This document shows, piece after piece, positions 54,931 through 64,000 of a DNA stretch of 64,000 nt. Below the pieces are notes generated by a model. That model was not told the DNA's origin. It was given only the letters and a program-made list of their open reading frames with translations, and did no database searches. Made by a program: the position numbers and the translations under genes. The number at the start of each line of letters is the position of its first letter. Within the stretch, counting starts at the first letter, position 1. This DNA is from Aquimarina latercula DSM 2041 (GTDB lineage Bacteria > Bacteroidota > Bacteroidia > Flavobacteriales > Flavobacteriaceae): the NCBI RefSeq assembly GCF_000430645.1, contig NZ_KE387185.1:903780-967779 (forward strand), written 5' to 3'.

Positions 54931-57900
54931 ATGCGTAAAATAATCTCTTATTTTATTAGGTACCACGTTGCCGTAGATGTAATTGTAATTGCTTTTATTG
55001 CATTCGGAATTTTTGGAGCAATATCGCTTAAGTCATCATTTTTTCCACTTACAGATTCTAAAAACATTAATATAAGTGTTGTCTATCCTGGTGCTTCTCC
55101 ACTAGAGATAGAAGAAGGTATTATACTTAAAGTAGAAGATAATCTTAAGGGTTTGGAAGGGGTAGAACGAGTAACTTCGACTTCTAGAGAAAATAGCGGA
55201 AACATTAATGTTGAAATCGAAAAAGGAAAAGATATCGATTTTATGTTGCTCGAAGTTAAAAATGCGGTAGATAGAGTGCCTTCATTTCCGACAGGAATGG
55301 AGCCTATTGTAACCTCTAAACAAGAAGCAATTAGGCCTACTATAGATTTTGCAATAAGTGGTACAGATATACCTTTGGTTACTTTAAAACAGATTGCAAG
55401 ACAAATCGAAAATGATCTTAGAGCAATAGATGGTATTTCGCAAATAAGTATAAGCGGTTATCCTGATGAAGAAATTGAAATTGCGGTAAATGAAAATAAC
55501 CTACTAGCTTTTAGACTTAGTTTTAATGAAGTAGCACAGGCAGTAAGTCAGGCTAATATATTAACTACCGGAGGTACTATTAAGACGAATGCAGAAGAAT
55601 ATCTTATCCGTGCAAATAATCGATCCTATTATGCCAATGAACTCTCTAACTTAATTATACGTGCAGATGCATCGGGACGAACAATAAGGCTTAAGGATGT
55701 TGCAGAGATTAGGGATCGTTTTTCAGAATCACCAAATGCATCATATTTTAATGGAAATCTCTCTGTTAATGTACAGATAACAAGTACCAATACAGAAGAT
55801 TTGATCTCATCGGCAGAGAAGACAAAAGCGTATATAGAAGAATTTAATCAGAAATATAACAACGTAACGCTTAATGTAATTAGTGATCGTTCTATTACGT
55901 TGGTACAGCGTACCAAATTGCTTACAGAAAATGCGATTATAGGAATGATCCTGGTACTTATATTTTTATCATTATTTCTTAATACTCGTTTAGCATTTTG
56001 GGTGGCATTTGGACTACCAATTGCTTTTTTAGGAATGTTCGTGTTAGCAGGATATTTTGATGTTACCATTAATGTTTTATCTCTTTTTGGGATGATCATT
56101 GTTATTGGTATTCTAGTAGATGATGGTATTGTAATTGCCGAAAATATTTATCAACATTACGAAAAAGGAAAAAGCCCTGTTCAGGCTGCGATTGATGGAA
56201 CAATGGAGGTAATTCCTCCGATAGTATCTGCAATTTTGACTACGATAATAGCTTTTGGGATCTTTTTATTTTTAGATGGTCGTATTGGTGATTTCTTTGG
56301 AGAAGTATCAGTTATAGTTATTCTAACTCTAGGTGTTTCGTTAATAGAGGCCTTAATTATTCTTCCGGCCCATTTGGCTCATTCGAAAGCTTTAAAAGCA
56401 GAAGACAAAAGACCTAAAAGTGGTATTGCTAATTTATTTTCAAAATTGAGATATATAAATACTTTTGGAGATAAAATTATGAGATGGCTGCGTGATAACA
56501 TTTATAGCCCGGCTCTAAGTTTTACATTAAAAAATAAGTTTTTTACGTTTTCCATTTTTGTGGTAATACTCATATTTACAATTGGAAGTGTTGGAGGAGG
56601 AATTGTAAGAACAGCGTTTTTTCCTCGTATTGCTAGTGATGTAATATCTGTTGATTTAGGTATGCCAAATGGTACTAATGAAAAGATAACAGATTCTATT
56701 ATTTCTATGATAGAAGAAAAAGCATGGCTCGTAAATAAAGAACTGAGTGAAGAGTTTTTGGTAGGAGAAGATTATGGAGGGAAACAGTTATTCGAAAATA
56801 TAATTAGAAGTGTAAATTCGTCTTCCAATGCATCTCTACGTATCAATATGTTACCTGGAGAAGAACGACCTAACGCAGTTAATTCTGGTTTAGTGGCAAA
56901 CAAAATTCGAGAGAAAGTAGGACCTGTTTTCGGTACAGAGCGCTTGATTTTTGGATCAGGTGGAAATTTTGGAGGAAGTCCAGTTTCCGTTTCGTTATTA
57001 GGAAGCAACATAGGAGAATTAAAAGCAGCAAAAGAAGAATTTAAAACTATATTAGAAAATGATTCCAGACTTAAAGATGTTGCTGATAACGACCCTGCCG
57101 GAATCAAAGAGATTAAATTAGAGCTTAAAGAAAGTGCATATGCTTTAGGCCTTAATCTTAGAGATGTTATGGCGCAGGTAAGAGGAGGTTTTTTTGGAAT
57201 ACAAGCACAACGTTTTCAAAGAGGTCAAGATGAAATAAGAGTTTGGGTTCGTTATGATAGAGAAAATAGATCTTCGATTTTAGATCTTGATAATATGAGG
57301 ATTTCTACGGCTGCAGGGGAGAGAATACCCTTAAATGAAATAGTTGATTACTCTATAGAGCGAGGAGACGTAGCGGTTAATCATCTAGATGGAAGGAGAG
57401 AGGTTCAGATTTCTGCGGATTTAAAAAATCCAGAAACTACGAGTTCTACAGATATTTTAGAAGAGATTCGTAACTCGATTATGCCAGAGATTATAGCAAA
57501 ATACCCAACAGTAACACCTTCGTATGAAGGACAAAATAGAGAAGCTGGAAAATTTCTTGGTTCTTTAGGACCAGTTGGTCTTACTGCATTAGCATTAATA
57601 TATATTACTATTGCGTTCACGTTTAGAAGTTATAGTCAACCATTGTTATTATTATTACTTATTCCATTGAGTCTTCCGGCTGTAGCTTTCGGTCATTGGA
57701 TACATGGATTTCCTATTAATATATTATCGCTCTTAGGGATTATAGCTTTGATAGGTATTATGGTTAATGATGGATTAGTTCTTATAGGGAAATTTAATAG
57801 TAATCTTAGAGCAGGAATGACTTTTGATAGTGCAATTTATGAAGCCGGAAAATCTCGTTTTCGAGCGATTTTTTTAACTTCCTTAACTACAATTGCAGGA

Positions 57901-58155
57901 TTAGCACCATTAATTTTTGAAGAAAGTCGTCAGGCAAAATTTCTTATTCCTATGGCAATTTCAATCGCTTATGGAATCGGTTTTGCCACAGTACTTACGT
58001 TGTTAGTATTACCATTGTTTTTGTCATTTAGTAATACGTTAAAAGTAGGAACCAAGTGGTTAGTTACAGGGAATAAAATAACAAAAGAAGAAGTAGAACG
58101 TGCTATAAAAGAGCAAAAAGAGGAACATGAGGAGCAACATGAATTACAAGTATAA
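54931..58155 (+). CDS. RND multidrug efflux transporter permease (AcrB-like)
   Basis: A 1074-residue inner-membrane RND transporter: KSSFFPLTDSKNINISVVYPGASPLEIEEG at the N-terminus, TM4 VIGILVDDGIVIAENIYQHYEKG with the proton-relay Asp pair, a second-half counterpart ALIGIMVNDGLVLIGKFN, and two large periplasmic loops. It lacks heavy-metal signatures, so drugs, lipids or other organic compounds are the likely substrates. The end overlaps the TolC-family gene. Confidence 0.92.
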   Translation: MRKIISYFIRYHVAVDVIVIAFIAFGIFGAISLKSSFFPLTDSKNINISVVYPGASPLEIEEGIILKVEDNLKGLEGVERVTSTSRENSGNINVEIEKGKDIDFMLLEVKNAVDRVPSFPTGMEPIVTSKQEAIRPTIDFAISGTDIPLVTLKQIARQIENDLRAIDGISQISISGYPDEEIEIAVNENNLLAFRLSFNEVAQAVSQANILTTGGTIKTNAEEYLIRANNRSYYANELSNLIIRADASGRTIRLKDVAEIRDRFSESPNASYFNGNLSVNVQITSTNTEDLISSAEKTKAYIEEFNQKYNNVTLNVISDRSITLVQRTKLLTENAIIGMILVLIFLSLFLNTRLAFWVAFGLPIAFLGMFVLAGYFDVTINVLSLFGMIIVIGILVDDGIVIAENIYQHYEKGKSPVQAAIDGTMEVIPPIVSAILTTIIAFGIFLFLDGRIGDFFGEVSVIVILTLGVSLIEALIILPAHLAHSKALKAEDKRPKSGIANLFSKLRYINTFGDKIMRWLRDNIYSPALSFTLKNKFFTFSIFVVILIFTIGSVGGGIVRTAFFPRIASDVISVDLGMPNGTNEKITDSIISMIEEKAWLVNKELSEEFLVGEDYGGKQLFENIIRSVNSSSNASLRINMLPGEERPNAVNSGLVANKIREKVGPVFGTERLIFGSGGNFGGSPVSVSLLGSNIGELKAAKEEFKTILENDSRLKDVADNDPAGIKEIKLELKESAYALGLNLRDVMAQVRGGFFGIQAQRFQRGQDEIRVWVRYDRENRSSILDLDNMRISTAAGERIPLNEIVDYSIERGDVAVNHLDGRREVQISADLKNPETTSSTDILEEIRNSIMPEIIAKYPTVTPSYEGQNREAGKFLGSLGPVGLTALALIYITIAFTFRSYSQPLLLLLLIPLSLPAVAFGHWIHGFPINILSLLGIIALIGIMVNDGLVLIGKFNSNLRAGMTFDSAIYEAGKSRFRAIFLTSLTTIAGLAPLIFEESRQAKFLIPMAISIAYGIGFATVLTLLVLPLFLSFSNTLKVGTKWLVTGNKITKEEVERAIKEQKEEHEEQHELQV

Positions 58156-59497
58156 ATATATAGTAAAATTAATCTTGTTTTTGTTTTTGGTTAGTGGTAG
58201 TGTTTTTGCCCAAAAATTAACAAAACAAGAAGCTATTAGATTAACATTAGAGAATAATTATGGTATTCTAATAGCAACTAATAATATAGATGTAGCAAAA
58301 AATAATAAAGGGCTACTAAATTCTGGTTATTTACCCACGTTAGCAGCCAATGCAGGAGCAAATTACCAAGAAACAACTTCTAAAACATCATTTCCTGGAG
58401 CTATTAATCCAGATACAGGATTACCCAGAGAAGATATTGAAATCGATGGAGCCGAAACTCAACGATACAACGCTTCACTTAATTTTAATTATACATTGTT
58501 CGATGGTTTAGGCAGGTATTATAATTATAAAAGGTTAAAGGAGCAGTATAATCTAACAGAATTACAGGCCAGAGAAACTATAGAGAATACTATGTTGCAA
58601 TTGTTTTCTGTATATTATGAAATAGCACGACTTACAGAAAATGAACAAGTTCTAGAAGAAACCCTCAGAATTTCTAAAGAACGAGTAACTAGATCTACTT
58701 ATCAGTTTGAGTATGGTCAAAATAATAAGTTAAATGTACTAAATGCAGAAGTTGATGTGGCAAATGATAGTATCAATTTACTAAATACAAAGCAACAACT
58801 AGCGAATACCAAACGAGACCTGAACGTGATTGTAGATAATGAATTGGAGAAACAATTTACGGTAGACACTATAGTAAAATTTATTTCAAGATTAGAAATT
58901 GATAGTTATTTAGAAAAATCAGTTGATAATAATGTAACCTTGTTACAGAATGAAAGTAATATTAGAATTAGTGATTATGATATAAAGGTTAGTAAATCTG
59001 GGTATTTACCAACGATTGGTCTCACTGGTTCTTATGGATGGAATGAAAACAGGAACCCTCCATCTGCTTTTTTTCCAGGTAATGTCGCCGATACGTATAC
59101 TTTAGCAGGAGGACTTAGTTTGAGCTGGAATCTTTTTGATGGTGGTGGTACTATAACCAGAGTTAAAAACGCTAAAATTGCATTAGACTCACAGGAATTG
59201 GCAAAAATTCAAGTGGAGCAACAAGTCAAAAGAGATATTGCAAATGCCTTAGGGAATTATGATAATCGTCTTAAAGTATATGAAATACAACAGCAAAATG
59301 TAGTTACCAATCAAAACAATTTTGAACGTTCTAAAGAAAGGTTCAATTTGGGACAAATTACTTCTATAGAATTTAGACAAGCTCAAATTAACCTAATACA
59401 AGCTCAGACCAATAAGACATTGGCTAAGTATGATGCTAAATTAGCAGAATTACAGTTATTACAGCTTACAGGACAGCTGTTAAATATTGATTTTTAG
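58139..59497 (+). CDS. TolC-family outer-membrane channel of the RND pump
   Basis: From ATG 58139 (MNYKYKYIVKLI) the protein is 452 residues with a signal peptide ending at SVFAQ. This start has a purine-rich GAGGAG upstream. An earlier in-frame ATG at 58127 is possible. Two OEP repeats follow: QEAIRLTLENNYGILIATNNIDVAK, YQFEYGQNNKLNVLNAEVDV, and ERFNLGQITSIEFRQAQINLIQAQ. It overlaps the pump gene by 17 bases, so adaptor, pump and channel form one operon. Confidence 0.9.
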   Translation: MNYKYKYIVKLILFLFLVSGSVFAQKLTKQEAIRLTLENNYGILIATNNIDVAKNNKGLLNSGYLPTLAANAGANYQETTSKTSFPGAINPDTGLPREDIEIDGAETQRYNASLNFNYTLFDGLGRYYNYKRLKEQYNLTELQARETIENTMLQLFSVYYEIARLTENEQVLEETLRISKERVTRSTYQFEYGQNNKLNVLNAEVDVANDSINLLNTKQQLANTKRDLNVIVDNELEKQFTVDTIVKFISRLEIDSYLEKSVDNNVTLLQNESNIRISDYDIKVSKSGYLPTIGLTGSYGWNENRNPPSAFFPGNVADTYTLAGGLSLSWNLFDGGGTITRVKNAKIALDSQELAKIQVEQQVKRDIANALGNYDNRLKVYEIQQQNVVTNQNNFERSKERFNLGQITSIEFRQAQINLIQAQTNKTLAKYDAKLAELQLLQLTGQLLNIDF

Positions 59498-59752: not shown

Positions 59753-59897
59753 TAATTCTATTTTCCATTCATCTACAGTAAACAACCACTCGTCGATAGT
59801 TTAAATGATTCCAACGAGGATCAAACGATTACCTCCCTAAAATTATTGATTTTTACGATATAAGCAGTAAATCCTTATGTTTTAAATCAATATCTAA

Positions 59898-60308
59898 ATG
59901 AAAAATTTAAAAATTTTATTAATTGAAGACGACGAGATAGAAAGAATGAAGTTTACCAGAGTTTTGCAAAAAAACAATTATGATTGTAAACTTCAAGAAG
60001 CGACAAACGGTGAGGAAGCCGTGGAAATTTTGAATGATGATACTAGAACTCCCGATCTTGTATTGCTAGATCTTAATATGCCAAAAATGAATGGTATTGA
60101 GTTTCTTAAAAGTTTAAAGTCTAATCAGAAATTAAAATATATTCCTGTTATAATTTTAAGTACTTCTAATAATCACCAAGATCTAAAAAGGTGCTATGAA
60201 GAAGGAATTGCGGGATATTTAGTAAAACCATTGAAGTATGAAGATTACGTAGAAAAAATAAAATCTTTAATAGAATATTGGGGAAAAAATGAGTTAATTT
60301 CTGTCTGA
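59898..60308 (+). CDS. Single-domain response regulator (CheY/Rcp-like)
   Basis: A 136-residue receiver domain with no output domain. It has the acidic pocket IEDDE (10-14), phospho-acceptor Asp58 in LVLLDLNMPKMNG, the Ser/Thr of ILSTS, and Lys in GYLVKPLK. It should take phosphate from the histidine kinases encoded downstream. It opens the H-NOX/FIST operon, with 46 bases to the next gene. Confidence 0.93.
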   Translation: MKNLKILLIEDDEIERMKFTRVLQKNNYDCKLQEATNGEEAVEILNDDTRTPDLVLLDLNMPKMNGIEFLKSLKSNQKLKYIPVIILSTSNNHQDLKRCYEEGIAGYLVKPLKYEDYVEKIKSLIEYWGKNELISV

Positions 60309-60354
60309 ACTACCAGAAAACTCGTAACTTAACTTACCAATTTAATACTATATT

Positions 60355-60900
60355 ATGAAAGGAATTGTTTTTACTGAGTTTTTACAACTTGTCGAGGATA
60401 AGTTTGGTCTAGAAATGGTAGATCAAATTATCGAAGAATCTAATTTACCATCTAATGGAGTTTATACGTCAATAGGGACGTATGAGTTTTCTGAAATGTT
60501 AAGCCTTATTACTAACCTAAGTAAAAATACTAACATTAAAACGGATGATTTGCTGCTAACATATGCGGAGCACTTTTTTAGTGTACTGGCTTCAAACTAT
60601 CCACAGTTGATAGAACGTTATACGGATCCGCTGGATATGTTAGAGTCTATAGAAAATCATATCCACGTAGAAGTAAGAAAAATTTATCCCAATGCAGAAC
60701 TTCCTACCTTTCAGGTATTAGAAAGAACACCAAATTCATTAGCTATGATATATAAATCAAGTAGGTCAATGTATAGTTTTGGACTAGGTTTGATGCACAA
60801 AACATTTGAACATTTTAACAAAAGGGCTGTTATATCATATGAGAAATTAAAAGATGATGGGACCGAAGTTAAATTTATGATTCAAATGAAAAATGGGTAA
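60355..60900 (+). CDS. H-NOX (haem nitric oxide/oxygen-binding) protein
   Basis: A 181-residue stand-alone haem-NO-binding domain of standard length. The proximal haem ligand is His104 in NHIHVEVRKIYP. The propionate-binding YxSxR motif is YKSSR at 133-137. The conserved AELPTF segment follows the haem His. It binds NO (and CO) at haem and usually inhibits a partner histidine kinase. The stop overlaps the start of the kinase gene by 8 bases, a strong sign that they work as a pair. Confidence 0.92.
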   Translation: MKGIVFTEFLQLVEDKFGLEMVDQIIEESNLPSNGVYTSIGTYEFSEMLSLITNLSKNTNIKTDDLLLTYAEHFFSVLASNYPQLIERYTDPLDMLESIENHIHVEVRKIYPNAELPTFQVLERTPNSLAMIYKSSRSMYSFGLGLMHKTFEHFNKRAVISYEKLKDDGTEVKFMIQMKNG

Positions 60901-62116
60901 ACTTAATGCTGATATATTGCAAAGAGCACTTGCTAGGGAAAAAGCAGCTCGTAAACAAGCAGAGGGCATTCTAGAAGATAAATCACGAGAATTATACGAG
61001 GTTGCTCAAGAATTAAAACAGGTAAATGAACAATTAAAAGGAGTTCTAGCCAAAAAAAGTTCTGAACTACAGGGAATGTTTGACAATCTCGTAGATGCCT
61101 ATGTTCTGATGAAAGTGAACGGTGATGTAATAGAGATGAATGACTCAGCAAAGGAGCTATTTGGTTATGATGTTAATAAAGAAAAAATTAATGTAACCTC
61201 TCTTATTTATAAAGATGATGTTCACTATGCTATGGAATCCTTTCAGAAATTAATTACAAAAGGATCTTTTACTGATTATGTGGCTAGAGCAGTAACCAAA
61301 AGTAATGGAGTTAGAACAGTCCATATTAATGGAAGTGTAATTCGAGATAAAGATAATAATGCAATAGCTGCACAAGGAATTGTGCGAGATATTACGGATC
61401 AGATAGAGGCAGAAAAACTAAAAGAAGAATTACTCAAAAATTTAGAGCAAAGTAATAAAGAGTTAAATGATTTTGCGCACGTGGTATCGCACGATTTGAA
61501 ATCACCTTTGCGTAGTATGAATGCGCTTATTAATTGGTTAAAAGAAGATTATGAAGATAAGTTGGATGAAAATGCAGTAACCTCTTTTAATGCTTTACTT
61601 AATAAAATTGAAAAAATGGATCATATGATTGATGGGATTCTAAGTTATTCGAGTATAGATAGAAATGAAAAGGTTGGTAAAGCAGTAAGTCTGGATAAAG
61701 TAGTATCGGATATATTAGAAATGATTTATGTTCCAGAAACATTTAGAATCAATATTCACAATACACTTCCTACGATGATGGGTGATCGATTTAGATTTCA
61801 ACAATTATTTCAAAATATAATCAGTAATGCGATAAAATATAATGACAAGGAAAAAGGAGTTTTAGATATTAAATGTAATGATATCGGTGATTTTTGGGAA
61901 ATTACGCTTGCGGATAATGGCCCAGGAATTCCAGAAGCATATCATCGTAAGATTTTTGAAATTTTTCAAACAGCTCAAGATAAATCTAAATCTACAGGAA
62001 TTGGATTGTCGATTGTAAAAAAGATAGTTAATATGTATGGAGGAGAAGTCGATGTATCCTCAGAAGAAAACAAAGGCACCACTTTTTTATTCACTCTTAA
62101 AAAACCTTCTATATGA
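60893..62116 (+). CDS. PAS-domain hybrid-free histidine kinase, partner of H-NOX
   Basis: A 407-residue soluble kinase. It has an N-terminal coiled coil (about 10-60), a PAS domain (about 60-170: MFDNLVDAYVLMKVNGDVIEMN) and an HisKA with His200 in VVSHDLKSPLRSMNAL. The ATPase domain has the N-box (NIISNAIKY), G1 (DNGPGIP) and G2 (GIGLSIVKK). There are no membrane helices, so it reads a cytoplasmic signal, most likely through H-NOX. It overlaps H-NOX by 8 bases and the FIST gene by 4. Confidence 0.93.
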   Translation: MGKLNADILQRALAREKAARKQAEGILEDKSRELYEVAQELKQVNEQLKGVLAKKSSELQGMFDNLVDAYVLMKVNGDVIEMNDSAKELFGYDVNKEKINVTSLIYKDDVHYAMESFQKLITKGSFTDYVARAVTKSNGVRTVHINGSVIRDKDNNAIAAQGIVRDITDQIEAEKLKEELLKNLEQSNKELNDFAHVVSHDLKSPLRSMNALINWLKEDYEDKLDENAVTSFNALLNKIEKMDHMIDGILSYSSIDRNEKVGKAVSLDKVVSDILEMIYVPETFRINIHNTLPTMMGDRFRFQQLFQNIISNAIKYNDKEKGVLDIKCNDIGDFWEITLADNGPGIPEAYHRKIFEIFQTAQDKSKSTGIGLSIVKKIVNMYGGEVDVSSEENKGTTFLFTLKKPSI

Positions 62117-63246
62117 AAATTCAACAGTACGAAAGAAAGAGAAATGGCAATTGGGAATCAACCACATCGTGTGATGAGAAGCTAAAAAACCCATTAGTAT
62201 TAGTCTTTGGGAATCGGTTTATTCTAGAAAAAGAACCCATTCTGGAAGAGGTGAAAAAATTATTTGACAATAGTGAAATTATTATAGGTTCTTCTGCGGG
62301 AGAAATTTTGGGAGCAAATGTTACTGAAAACACTATTTCATTGACAGCTGTAGAGTTTGAAAATAGCACATATAAATTAAGTCATCAGAACATTTTAGAT
62401 ACTCAAAAAGATGCTTTTGAAACTGGAAAAAGATTAGCAGCTCAATTACCTTCAGAGAACTTAAAACATATTTTTATTGTAAGTGAAGGTAGTTATGTTA
62501 ATGGTTCTGCTTTGATAGATGGTGTAGAGGAAATACATAGAGAAATACCGTGTACAGGAGGTTTATGTGGAGATGATGCTAGGTTCGAAAAAACATTAGT
62601 AGGCTATAATGAAAATCCAAAAGAAGGAGAAATCGTAGCAGTTGGATTTTACGGAGATAGTTTGCAGATTACTAGTGCACAGTATGGTGGATGGACTCCT
62701 TTTGGACCAGAAAGAATAATTACAAAATCAGATAATAATGTATTATTTGAATTAGATAATCAACCAGCACTTGATTTATACAAAAAATATTTGGGAGATA
62801 AAGCTTCAGAATTACCACAGTCAGCATTATTGTATCCATTAAGTGTAAAAACAGAAGGGCGTAAAGAAGCTATAGTAAGAACTATTCTTTCTATTGATGA
62901 AGAAAAAAATGCTATGATTTTAGCAGGAGATGTGCCAGAAGGATCCGTTGTACAATTAATGATGGCTAACATTGATAAGATAGCAGAGGGAGCTTCCAAA
63001 GCAGCAGAAATAGCTATGAAGTCTAGGGATAAAGATCCTCAATTAGCACTATTAGTAAGTTGTATTGGTAGAAAATTAGTAATGGATCAGAGAGTAGAAG
63101 AAGAAATTGAAGAAGTTATAGAAGAAGTAGGTGAAAACGCAGTTATAACTGGTTTTTATTCTTATGGAGAGTTAGCCCCTTTTAGTAATAGTACTAGGTG
63201 TGAACTTCATAATCAAACTATGACTTTAACCTTATTGAGTGAATAA
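62113..63246 (+). CDS. FIST-domain sensory protein (NosP-like candidate)
   Basis: A 377-residue cytoplasmic protein with FIST_N (about 25-215: LVLVFGNRFIL, IIIGSSAGEILGANV, CTGGLCGDDARFEKTLVG) and FIST_C (about 220-365: DLYKKYLGDKASELPQSALLYPLSV, GFYSYGELAPF, and LHNQTMTLTLL at the end). FIST proteins are signal-input modules for kinases or cyclases. Some (NosP) bind haem and sense NO. Placement between two kinases and after H-NOX makes a NosP-like role plausible. I cannot identify the haem ligand with confidence. It overlaps the previous gene by 4 bases, and the next begins 3 bases later. Confidence 0.88.
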   Translation: MKIQQYERKRNGNWESTTSCDEKLKNPLVLVFGNRFILEKEPILEEVKKLFDNSEIIIGSSAGEILGANVTENTISLTAVEFENSTYKLSHQNILDTQKDAFETGKRLAAQLPSENLKHIFIVSEGSYVNGSALIDGVEEIHREIPCTGGLCGDDARFEKTLVGYNENPKEGEIVAVGFYGDSLQITSAQYGGWTPFGPERIITKSDNNVLFELDNQPALDLYKKYLGDKASELPQSALLYPLSVKTEGRKEAIVRTILSIDEEKNAMILAGDVPEGSVVQLMMANIDKIAEGASKAAEIAMKSRDKDPQLALLVSCIGRKLVMDQRVEEEIEEVIEEVGENAVITGFYSYGELAPFSNSTRCELHNQTMTLTLLSE

Positions 63247-63249
63247 AGA

Positions 63250-64000
63250 ATGAATTCATTACTGAAGAGGCAGATAAGAAAAAAATTATCAGATGATTTA
63301 AAAAATCATCCTGAAATTCAGGAGTTTTTGGCTGCAATTGATGGTTCGTATAATACCTATGAAGAGCAATTTTCAATGTTGCAAAGAGCTATGTCAATAA
63401 GTTCGCAAGAATTATTTGATGCTAATAAACAATTAACTGAAGAAGCAAAGCGACAAAGATTGGTTATTGAACGATTGAATGATGCGATAAAAACGCTGCG
63501 ATCTATTAATGATAAAAAGGATAAAGAAGTAGCAACAAGTATTGAAGATCTTACAGGTATTGAATTAGCTACATTGATCGAGGAACAAGCAGCTAAGATT
63601 TCTGATTTTGAAAAACAGAGAGCAAAGATGTTGATGGATCTAGAAAAGAGTAATGAAGAACTGACAAGTTATGCACAAGTAGTTTCGCATGATTTAAAAT
63701 CTCCTTTAAGAAATGTAAGTGCTTTGATAACTTGGATAAAAGAGGATGCAGAAGACTTGAGCGGTACTGTTTTGAGTCATTTTGGCCATATCGAAGAGAA
63801 TATTGAAAAAATGGATAGTATGATCGGAGGGATTTTGGAATATTCTCTAATTGATAAAAAAGACAAAATTGTAAATAAAGTAGATCTCAATATGTTATTA
63901 TATCAAACAATAGAATCGCTACATGCACCAGATTTTATAGAGTTTAGCATAGATAATAAGCTTCCAACTATTAGGAAGGATCCACATAGAATTAAGCAAT
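63250..64000 (+). CDS. Histidine kinase, partial (cut by window end)
   Basis: An open frame from ATG 63250 to the window end gives 250 residues. A helical N-terminal region of the sort found in FIST-associated kinases (about 1-130: FSMLQRAMSISSQELFDANKQL) is followed by a coiled coil. The HisKA has His147 in VVSHDLKSPLRNVSAL, closely resembling the upstream kinase, so the two are probably paralogues. The ATPase domain lies mostly outside. The gene follows the FIST gene after 3 bases. Confidence 0.9.
   Translation, partial: MNSLLKRQIRKKLSDDLKNHPEIQEFLAAIDGSYNTYEEQFSMLQRAMSISSQELFDANKQLTEEAKRQRLVIERLNDAIKTLRSINDKKDKEVATSIEDLTGIELATLIEEQAAKISDFEKQRAKMLMDLEKSNEELTSYAQVVSHDLKSPLRNVSALITWIKEDAEDLSGTVLSHFGHIEENIEKMDSMIGGILEYSLIDKKDKIVNKVDLNMLLYQTIESLHAPDFIEFSIDNKLPTIRKDPHRIKQ

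Follow-up and report, generated by a model that had tools for sequence, protein, structure and literature searches.

The 64,000-nucleotide stretch of the Aquimarina latercula DSM 2041 genome analysed here (contig NZ_KE387185.1, positions 903,780 to 967,779; hereafter the window) ends within an operon of nine co-directional forward-strand genes, which combines an H-NOX haem sensor of nitric oxide (NO) with FIST proteins, histidine kinases and a putative phosphorelay. The first gene encodes a single-domain receiver (59898..60308; Response_reg, 95 bits; D58, T89 and K110), proposed as the shared phosphate intermediate, and is followed by those for H-NOX (60355..60900; HNOB, PF07700, 139 bits), its proposed partner, a histidine kinase with Pfam PAS, HisKA and HATPase_c domains (HK1; 60893..62116), and the two members of cassette 1, the sensor protein FIST1 (62113..63246; FIST 146 bits, FIST_C 126 bits; C317, R320, C363 and H366) and a kinase (HK2; 63250..64302; HisKA), within which the window edge at 64000 falls. 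The N-terminal ~140 residues of HK2 contain no Pfam domain, with a LLKRQ...SSxEL motif in this part. Coordinates and Pfam matches agree with the order given in the original prediction, including its overlaps of 8 and 4 bases and 3-base gap, and the near-identical H-boxes noted there are present in both kinases (VVSHDLKSPLRSM and VVSHDLKSPLRNV). Reading past position 64000 for further components, as had also been proposed, recovers the rest of HK2 and four more genes, to about 67632. In window numbering, these forward-strand genes encode a second FIST protein (FIST2; 64309-65409; FIST 72 bits, FIST_C 69 bits), a kinase (HK3; 65406-66569) with no Pfam match in its N-terminal half, a 106-residue Hpt-like protein (66573-66893; 18.7 bits, Pfam cut-off 24.6) and a response regulator whose DNA-binding domain is of the LytTR type (66907-67632), HK3 and the regulator being assigned from open reading frames (ORFs) and Pfam. 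Internal gaps do not exceed 46 bases, and a gap of 389 bases follows the 3' end. The operon is preceded by a direct repeat on the same strand (59764..59802), a proposed LytTR site consisting of two 18-base boxes which start at 59764 and 59785 with a period of 21 bp. Aquimarina amphilecti is the nearest named match, with a FIST2 that is 97 % identical and an identical nine-gene order. Genes for an RND-type transporter and a TolC-like outer membrane protein, as judged from their translations by eye, lie on the same strand 400 bases upstream (54931-59497).

The residues expected of a phosphorelay are complete and conserved. D58 and K110 of the receiver are found in 98/98 homologues and T89 in 97/98, H56 of the Hpt-like protein in 96/96 and K59 in 94, and D53 in the receiver domain of the LytTR regulator in 93/93, which together with the kinase histidines constitute a His-Asp-His-Asp set. 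Five of nine Hpt proteins tested from relatives exceed the PF01627 cut-off. Thirteen proteins encoded in the named loci (the 80 loci listed from a search with a FIST2 alignment) contain kinase core, receiver and Hpt domains, and all thirteen do so in that order, the same order as that inferred for the separate genes of the operon. For twelve of these fusions the gene immediately before is that of FIST2, and for the remaining one (L237) that of H-NOX; five were scanned with Pfam and the Hpt was recognised in four. The original prediction had the pathway end at the single-domain receiver. This part is not supported, as conserved genes for Hpt and a LytTR regulator lie further along the operon, which makes that regulator the likely endpoint.

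The distribution of the operon was assessed across 397 genomes of the family, using 149 H-NOX genes (one of 150 matches, below the cut-off, was omitted). H-NOX occurs in 146/397 genomes and, among the matches listed, FIST in 116 and both in 93 (Fisher p 8.5e-31; the genomes are related). Counting on the 150 FIST matches listed, which gives a lower bound, at least 75/149 H-NOX genes have a FIST match inside 15 kb, and in 74 of these 75 it lies 1.3-2.7 kb downstream on the same strand; four loci first scored as FIST-distant (L138-L141) also carry an adjoining FIST gene or fragment. Gene order was surveyed in 101 of the 149 H-NOX loci, comprising 75 with a nearby FIST (window included), 7/18 with FIST apparently elsewhere in the genome and 19/53 from genomes with no FIST match. 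The order receiver, H-NOX, kinase, FIST, kinase, Hpt, LytTR regulator is present in 67/101 loci, and receiver, H-NOX, kinase, Hpt, LytTR regulator, with neither FIST nor FIST kinase, in 17/101, while the remaining 17/101 are variants, some owing to a gene more than 200 bases off. The common core is receiver-H-NOX-kinase-Hpt-LytTR regulator, with FIST-kinase cassettes as optional components between the H-NOX kinase and Hpt; having been selected by H-NOX, the surveyed loci are uninformative on the constancy of H-NOX itself. The kinase gene overlaps the preceding H-NOX gene by a median of 8 bases (100 loci), and distances from H-NOX to FIST cluster near 1350, 1730, 2115 and 2500 bp, which would fit one to four PAS domains in HK1 (three PAS stretches are seen in L138). 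In the surveyed operons the cassettes bring no additional receiver gene. A different order is found in L064 (genome G253), with a long receiver protein, FIST, H-NOX and a 1156-residue hybrid kinase. An additional gene for a 671-residue kinase lies 5' of the operon receiver in L168 and L221, preceded in L168 by a second receiver gene, and may represent another input cassette, located at the operon's 5' end. Tandem, lower-scoring FIST genes occur in genomes with no H-NOX match (four each in G069, G101, G225 and G261, three in G368).

The position occupied by the FIST-kinase pairs appears to be a fixed slot with variable content. Of the 101 surveyed loci, the window alone has both cassettes, and at least five relatives among the 80 named loci also carry two. 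The order FIST1-HK2-FIST2-HK3 is found in L164 and L165 (Aquimarina) and L171 (Winogradskyella), of which L164 may be nearly the same species as the window genome, and the reversed order, FIST2-HK3 and then FIST1, in L166 and L167 (both Aquimarina; L167 is cut by a contig end). A FIST2-HK3 pair occupies the slot instead of FIST1-HK2 in L138, L139 and L140, with identities to the window genome of 46-48 % (FIST2) and 32-39 % (HK3). Outside H-NOX operons, FIST2 relatives among the loci listed are mostly encoded directly 5' of a kinase, either plain or hybrid, in organisms ranging from Saprospiraceae to Methanolobus. In the Saprospiraceae-type loci L203, L204 and L212, genes for H-NOX, a hybrid kinase and a LytTR regulator are followed by those for a receiver protein, FIST2 and a kinase-receiver-Hpt hybrid.

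The kinase cores of the operon are related to one another. Among 44 kinase matches in its own genome, the HK1 core is most similar to those of HK2 (49 %) and HK3 (41 %), with the next at 36 %. In a tree, the cores of the operon kinases group in a single clade (support 0.83), which excludes all of the other own kinases placed (27 of 41 matches) and includes, from elsewhere, only two stand-alone FIST2 kinases; the tree omits L064, L136, L141 and L147, as well as kinases of fewer than 300 residues and receiver-bearing kinases of the named loci. The HK2 and HK3 cores of L171 are 82 % identical across 653 nt, with dissimilar N-terminal halves, while HK1 and HK2 of L166 are 70 % identical across 662 nt, and the L166 HK2 core clusters with HK1 cores, where it is nearest to HK1 of L163 (distance 0.44) and to that of its own operon (0.45). 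Both cases are read as natural swaps of the kinase core, and it is therefore argued that the cores may be interchangeable at the receiver. That the kinases converge on one receiver, as originally predicted, is accordingly supported by inference from the single clade, the mutual best matches, the core exchanges in L166 and L171 and the kinase-receiver-Hpt fusions. The SSxEL motif is found in the N-terminus of the kinase after a FIST1-type gene in 27/29 loci examined.

The direct repeat before the operon is widespread. The regions upstream of the operon were compared in 99 loci, namely the 101 surveyed minus L116 and L147, where no receiver gene was detected. The heptamer ATTCGTC occurs within 300 bases 5' of the operon in 63/99 of these, against a shuffle expectation of 2.4, and the repeat element was identified in 77/99, with 16/17 adjacent pairs at 21 bp and 94/96 sites in the same (+) orientation. 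Scored with a weight matrix built from sites in these same 99 regions, a site of at least 12 bits is present in 84/99, a box of at least 14 bits in 82/99, including all 20 loci without a FIST cassette in the operon, and a tandem of at least 16 bits in 69/99. The boxes at 59764 and 59785 score 23.2 and 21.3 bits and start 134 and 113 bp upstream of the ATG of the receiver gene, while no other site reaches 14 bits, or even 12 bits, in the 64-kb window. In 18 other stretches of the same genome (358,218 bases) no box of at least 14 bits was found. LytTR regulators usually bind direct repeats two helical turns apart. The tandem repeat, with its boxes approximately two helical turns apart before a promoter, has this form and is proposed as the site of the operon's LytTR regulator.

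Boxes also occur beyond the operon. Four further sites, with no strong second box, are located in the 17 kb after the operon end, with none in the next 31 kb. They precede genes for an M10-like lipoprotein, a STAS protein (with flippase and glycosyltransferase genes behind it), a glycosyltransferase of family 2 and, divergently, a 1030-residue membrane protein. Across the surveyed loci (1.6 Mb), 73 sites of at least 20 bits lie outside the operon promoters, in 52/101 loci, whereas Markov sequence of the same length has none. Of the 73, 71 do not fall in long ORFs, and for 62 an ORF starts no more than 400 bases away, most often at 80-100. The most common class of gene 3' of these sites encodes a secreted protein of 800-930 residues (25/73, by sequence pattern), and the one such protein that was scanned carries a type IX tail. 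The downstream locus (L004:9802-19501 and L333:1-9207) encodes the M10-like lipoprotein, a secreted protein of 1319 residues that carries DUF6923, DUF4114 and a sorting tail of type IX, a TPR protein, the STAS protein, a flippase (match below its Pfam cut-off), glycosyltransferases and a GH2-like protein, and is of a matrix or exopolysaccharide type.

Linkage between this locus and the operon extends across the family. The group 1 glycosyltransferase of this locus (E 1e-60 or better) is present in 101/146 genomes with H-NOX and 6/251 others (odds ratio 92, p 2.5e-50, a value which overstates independence as the genomes are related; the list omits some second copies, with genome counts unaffected). 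In 89 of the 101 genomes its gene is found downstream on the same strand at no more than 60 kb (median 12.3 kb), and a box of at least 14 bits is present in 24/30 of the glycosyltransferase loci examined. Five of the six genomes with the glycosyltransferase and no H-NOX were examined (G005, G062, G123, G147 and G238). G005 (L383-L384) encodes the receiver, kinase, Hpt and LytTR regulator and retains the boxes, but lacks H-NOX, and H-NOX may therefore be optional too. Kinase, Hpt and LytTR regulator are also seen in G062, at a contig end, and in G123, beside an unreadable stretch and with no boxes, while a short contig of G147 has boxes and no relay. No GGDEF domain was found in the A. latercula genome (EAL and HD-GYP domains were not searched genome-wide), and GGDEF matches exceed the cut-off in 2/199 genomes of the family. 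The usual output through cyclic di-GMP (c-di-GMP) would thus be unavailable. The GGDEF, EAL or HD-GYP output by which c-di-GMP pathways of H-NOX and NosP are recognised is likewise not that of the operon, which ends in a LytTR regulator.

Among the sensors, H-NOX is the most readily assigned. The haem residues named in the original prediction are borne out, with His104, Y133 and S135 present in 101/101 aligned H-NOX proteins and R137 in 98. Position 142, which we take from the motif offset to be the equivalent of Tyr140 in O2 sensors, is F here and F, L or M in 101/101, and the absence of a distal Tyr points to an NO-type protein. The role of Tyr140 in O2-sensing H-NOX proteins has been described in a study of Kordia algicida H-NOX (PDB 6bdd; PMC7356049), to which the window protein is 72 % identical (129/178 residues). 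FIST1 and FIST2 both exceed the cut-offs for FIST (PF08495) and FIST_C (PF10442) and share 20 % identity. C317, R320, C363 and H366 are invariant in 73/73 operon FIST1 proteins; of nine FIST1-like proteins from the named loci, four have Gln at position 366. FIST2-type proteins have H176, C304 and R307 in 80/80 of the loci listed and no conserved counterpart of C363 or H366, and FIST2 probably reads some signal through a different site from FIST1. With scores of 67.5 and 33.6 bits against a cut-off of 450 bits, neither FIST1 nor FIST2 passes the NosP equivalog model (NF041558), and the identification of FIST1 as NosP was rejected on this score. The gammaproteobacterial NosP-type proteins compared (L283-L290), of which L283 and L284 score above and L285-L290 below that cut-off, share a His one column from H176 (8/8), which is absent from FIST1, and 7/8 have a His one column from H366. 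Among Burkholderiales FIST proteins (best 30 loci), 27 are FIST1-type by score, and 6/30 are encoded beside a receiver/HD-GYP-like gene, as identified by motif pattern. Such a layout has been reported for the NO-responsive NosP of Burkholderia pseudomallei (PMC12570481). Because the layout of the Burkholderiales FIST1-type loci matches that of this NosP, the sequence of which is outside the comparison, FIST1 is a plausible candidate haem or NO sensor. Resemblance to Burkholderiales FIST proteins, some beside receiver/HD-GYP-like genes, speaks for the description of the FIST protein as NosP-like, and the score against the NosP model and the lack of the NosP-type His speak against it. A sequence search found no FIST relatives among solved structures. 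For FIST2 of A. amphilecti, a structure model from 18 sequences (predicted local distance difference test score, pLDDT, 92.9) matches FBXO22 (Z 21.6, root-mean-square deviation 3.1, 245 aligned), followed by chorismatase at Z 12.1; the FBXO22 match shows the fold of FIST2 and indicates no ligand. The model of FIST1 (10 sequences, pLDDT 57.6) was poor and was not used.

On the basis of the parts and their order, the conserved phospho-residues, the boxes and the linkage, all read directly from the DNA, the operon is interpreted as a multi-sensor NO phosphorelay controlling matrix genes independently of c-di-GMP, a reading to which we assign a probability of roughly 0.7. Three input modules, H-NOX with HK1, FIST1 with HK2 and FIST2 with HK3, would differ in their sensory halves and share related kinase cores, and all three kinases would phosphorylate (or dephosphorylate) the single-domain receiver, from which phosphate would pass to Hpt and then to the LytTR response regulator. 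The latter may bind the boxes before its own operon and the adjacent matrix-type genes, which here comprise those for the lipoprotein, the STAS protein ahead of the flippase and glycosyltransferase, another glycosyltransferase and the membrane protein, and in relatives also that for a large secreted protein. NO and two FIST signals would in this manner set matrix production with no involvement of c-di-GMP; we infer the partner pairs, phosphate flow and pairing of LytTR regulator and box, as we do the sign of the response and the FIST ligands. A broader formulation, which we consider evenly balanced between right and wrong, is that of a plug-in architecture, where FIST-kinase cassettes are inserted, swapped and re-ordered in the fixed slot of one NO phosphorelay and kinase cores recombine, wiring new sensors to one receiver, with the LytTR output driving the matrix genes directly.

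Several observations weigh against the interpretation as an NO phosphorelay controlling matrix genes. The Hpt-like protein of the window genome falls under the PF01627 cut-off. Within-operon similarity of HK1 and HK2 in the DHp domain is 0.472, versus 0.473 on random pairing (77 operons, the duplicate operons L175 and L185 being left out), and the excess in the CA domain is small (0.477 versus 0.464; 0/2000 permutations). General co-evolution of the kinases thus gives no sign of a shared output, and concerted evolution of the operon kinases as a general process was rejected, given that DHp similarity is not raised and clear exchange is limited to two operons. No box of at least 14 bits precedes 17/79 operons labelled as having FIST, and in 49/101 surveyed loci the stretch examined contains no box of at least 20 bits other than at the operon promoter. 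In the window genome, no box lies directly before the copy of the group 1 glycosyltransferase or the gene for the 1319-residue secreted protein. The glycosyltransferase is furthermore absent from 45/146 genomes with H-NOX, while G238 encodes it with neither relay nor box in 40 kb.

Four alternative explanations were considered. In the original prediction, NO may be read by both H-NOX and FIST as haem sensors, with kinases ending at the single-domain receiver, which would perhaps widen the NO range or add redox discrimination. The adjoining genes and similar H-boxes are consistent with this, as is the location of FIST1-type genes beside receiver/HD-GYP-like genes in 6 of the best 30 Burkholderiales loci, the layout of the NO-responsive B. 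pseudomallei NosP, but the conserved Hpt and LytTR genes complete a relay, both FIST proteins fail the NosP equivalog model and the invariant His and Cys residues differ between the FIST types, and we regard it as distinctly unlikely. A version of the phosphorelay interpretation, in which the relay is the same and the FIST proteins sense signals other than NO, such as free haem or small ligands, so that NO is integrated with two unrelated cues, is given only slightly less than an even chance. The low identity of FIST1 and FIST2, the difference in their invariant His (H366 versus H176), the optional nature of the cassettes and the description of Burkholderia thailandensis NosP as haem-responsive (PMC13259868) all speak for it, whereas the FIST proteins with measured ligands in the literature consulted concern haem or NO.

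It is also conceivable that the FIST kinases serve other regulators and that HK1 alone feeds the operon receiver, with operon membership reflecting co-expression only. The old divergence of HK1 and HK2 and a DHp similarity no higher within than between operons speak for this, but the operon cores form one clade to the exclusion of the other own kinases placed, cores have been exchanged in two operons, and the cassettes of the surveyed operons come without a further receiver gene, making this explanation improbable. Finally, the box could belong to a different regulator, with the matrix genes tied to the relay by position alone. While the box is missing from several operons, its presence at 14 bits or more before 82/99, including all 20 lacking a cassette, its usual LytTR site form and the retention of relay and boxes in the absence of H-NOX in G005 argue for its connection to the relay, and this last alternative is viewed as rather doubtful.

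If correct, the plug-in architecture would provide a c-di-GMP-free counterpart in the Bacteroidota of the proteobacterial NO-biofilm pathways, with up to three chemically different sensors per operon. Signalling through H-NOX and NosP has mainly been described via c-di-GMP in Proteobacteria; here, H-NOX is found in 146/397 genomes of a family in which 2/199 have a GGDEF domain above the cut-off. The operon provides a specific path by which NO could reach matrix genes, together with a defined DNA box, and its natural cassette changes indicate how new sensors may join an existing relay.

As in the H-NOX/HnoK network of Shewanella oneidensis and Vibrio, where the output is biofilm formation (PMC8846402, PMC8738867), a stand-alone H-NOX would regulate a kinase. 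In that network, as described in these sources, the output is formed by c-di-GMP enzymes, whereas the operon contains a separate receiver, Hpt, a DNA-binding LytTR regulator and FIST cassettes, in a genome with no GGDEF. The Vibrio NosP/VpsS and H-NOX/HqsK systems are comparable in that sensors act on cytosolic kinases which converge on one Hpt, in the LuxU-LuxO pathway (PMC6769237), but are described with hybrid kinases and a quorum-sensing Hpt common with autoinducer receptors, rather than a single operon in which the receiver is a separate protein and the cassettes have a slot. The NosR-NosP-NosK system of B. pseudomallei (PMC12570481) similarly pairs a FIST protein with a kinase whose ~130 N-terminal residues lack a known sensor domain, and, judging from the Burkholderiales operon layout, its NosP is probably FIST1-type; unlike here, a degenerate HD-GYP protein forms the output of a three-gene operon described without H-NOX. 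For K. algicida H-NOX, despite the high identity, the source presents structure and simulation and no pathway (PMC7356049). FIST genes near group 1 H-NOX, a group including Cellulophaga algicola, have already been published (PMC7108781; PMC8738867), and the available text on this neighbourhood (Mukhopadhyay 2020; PMC8738867) gives no cassette architecture, Hpt/LytTR relay, box or matrix locus. Searches of the open-access literature gave no paper describing this slot for cassettes, the relay from receiver through Hpt to LytTR regulator, the operon box or its link to matrix genes.

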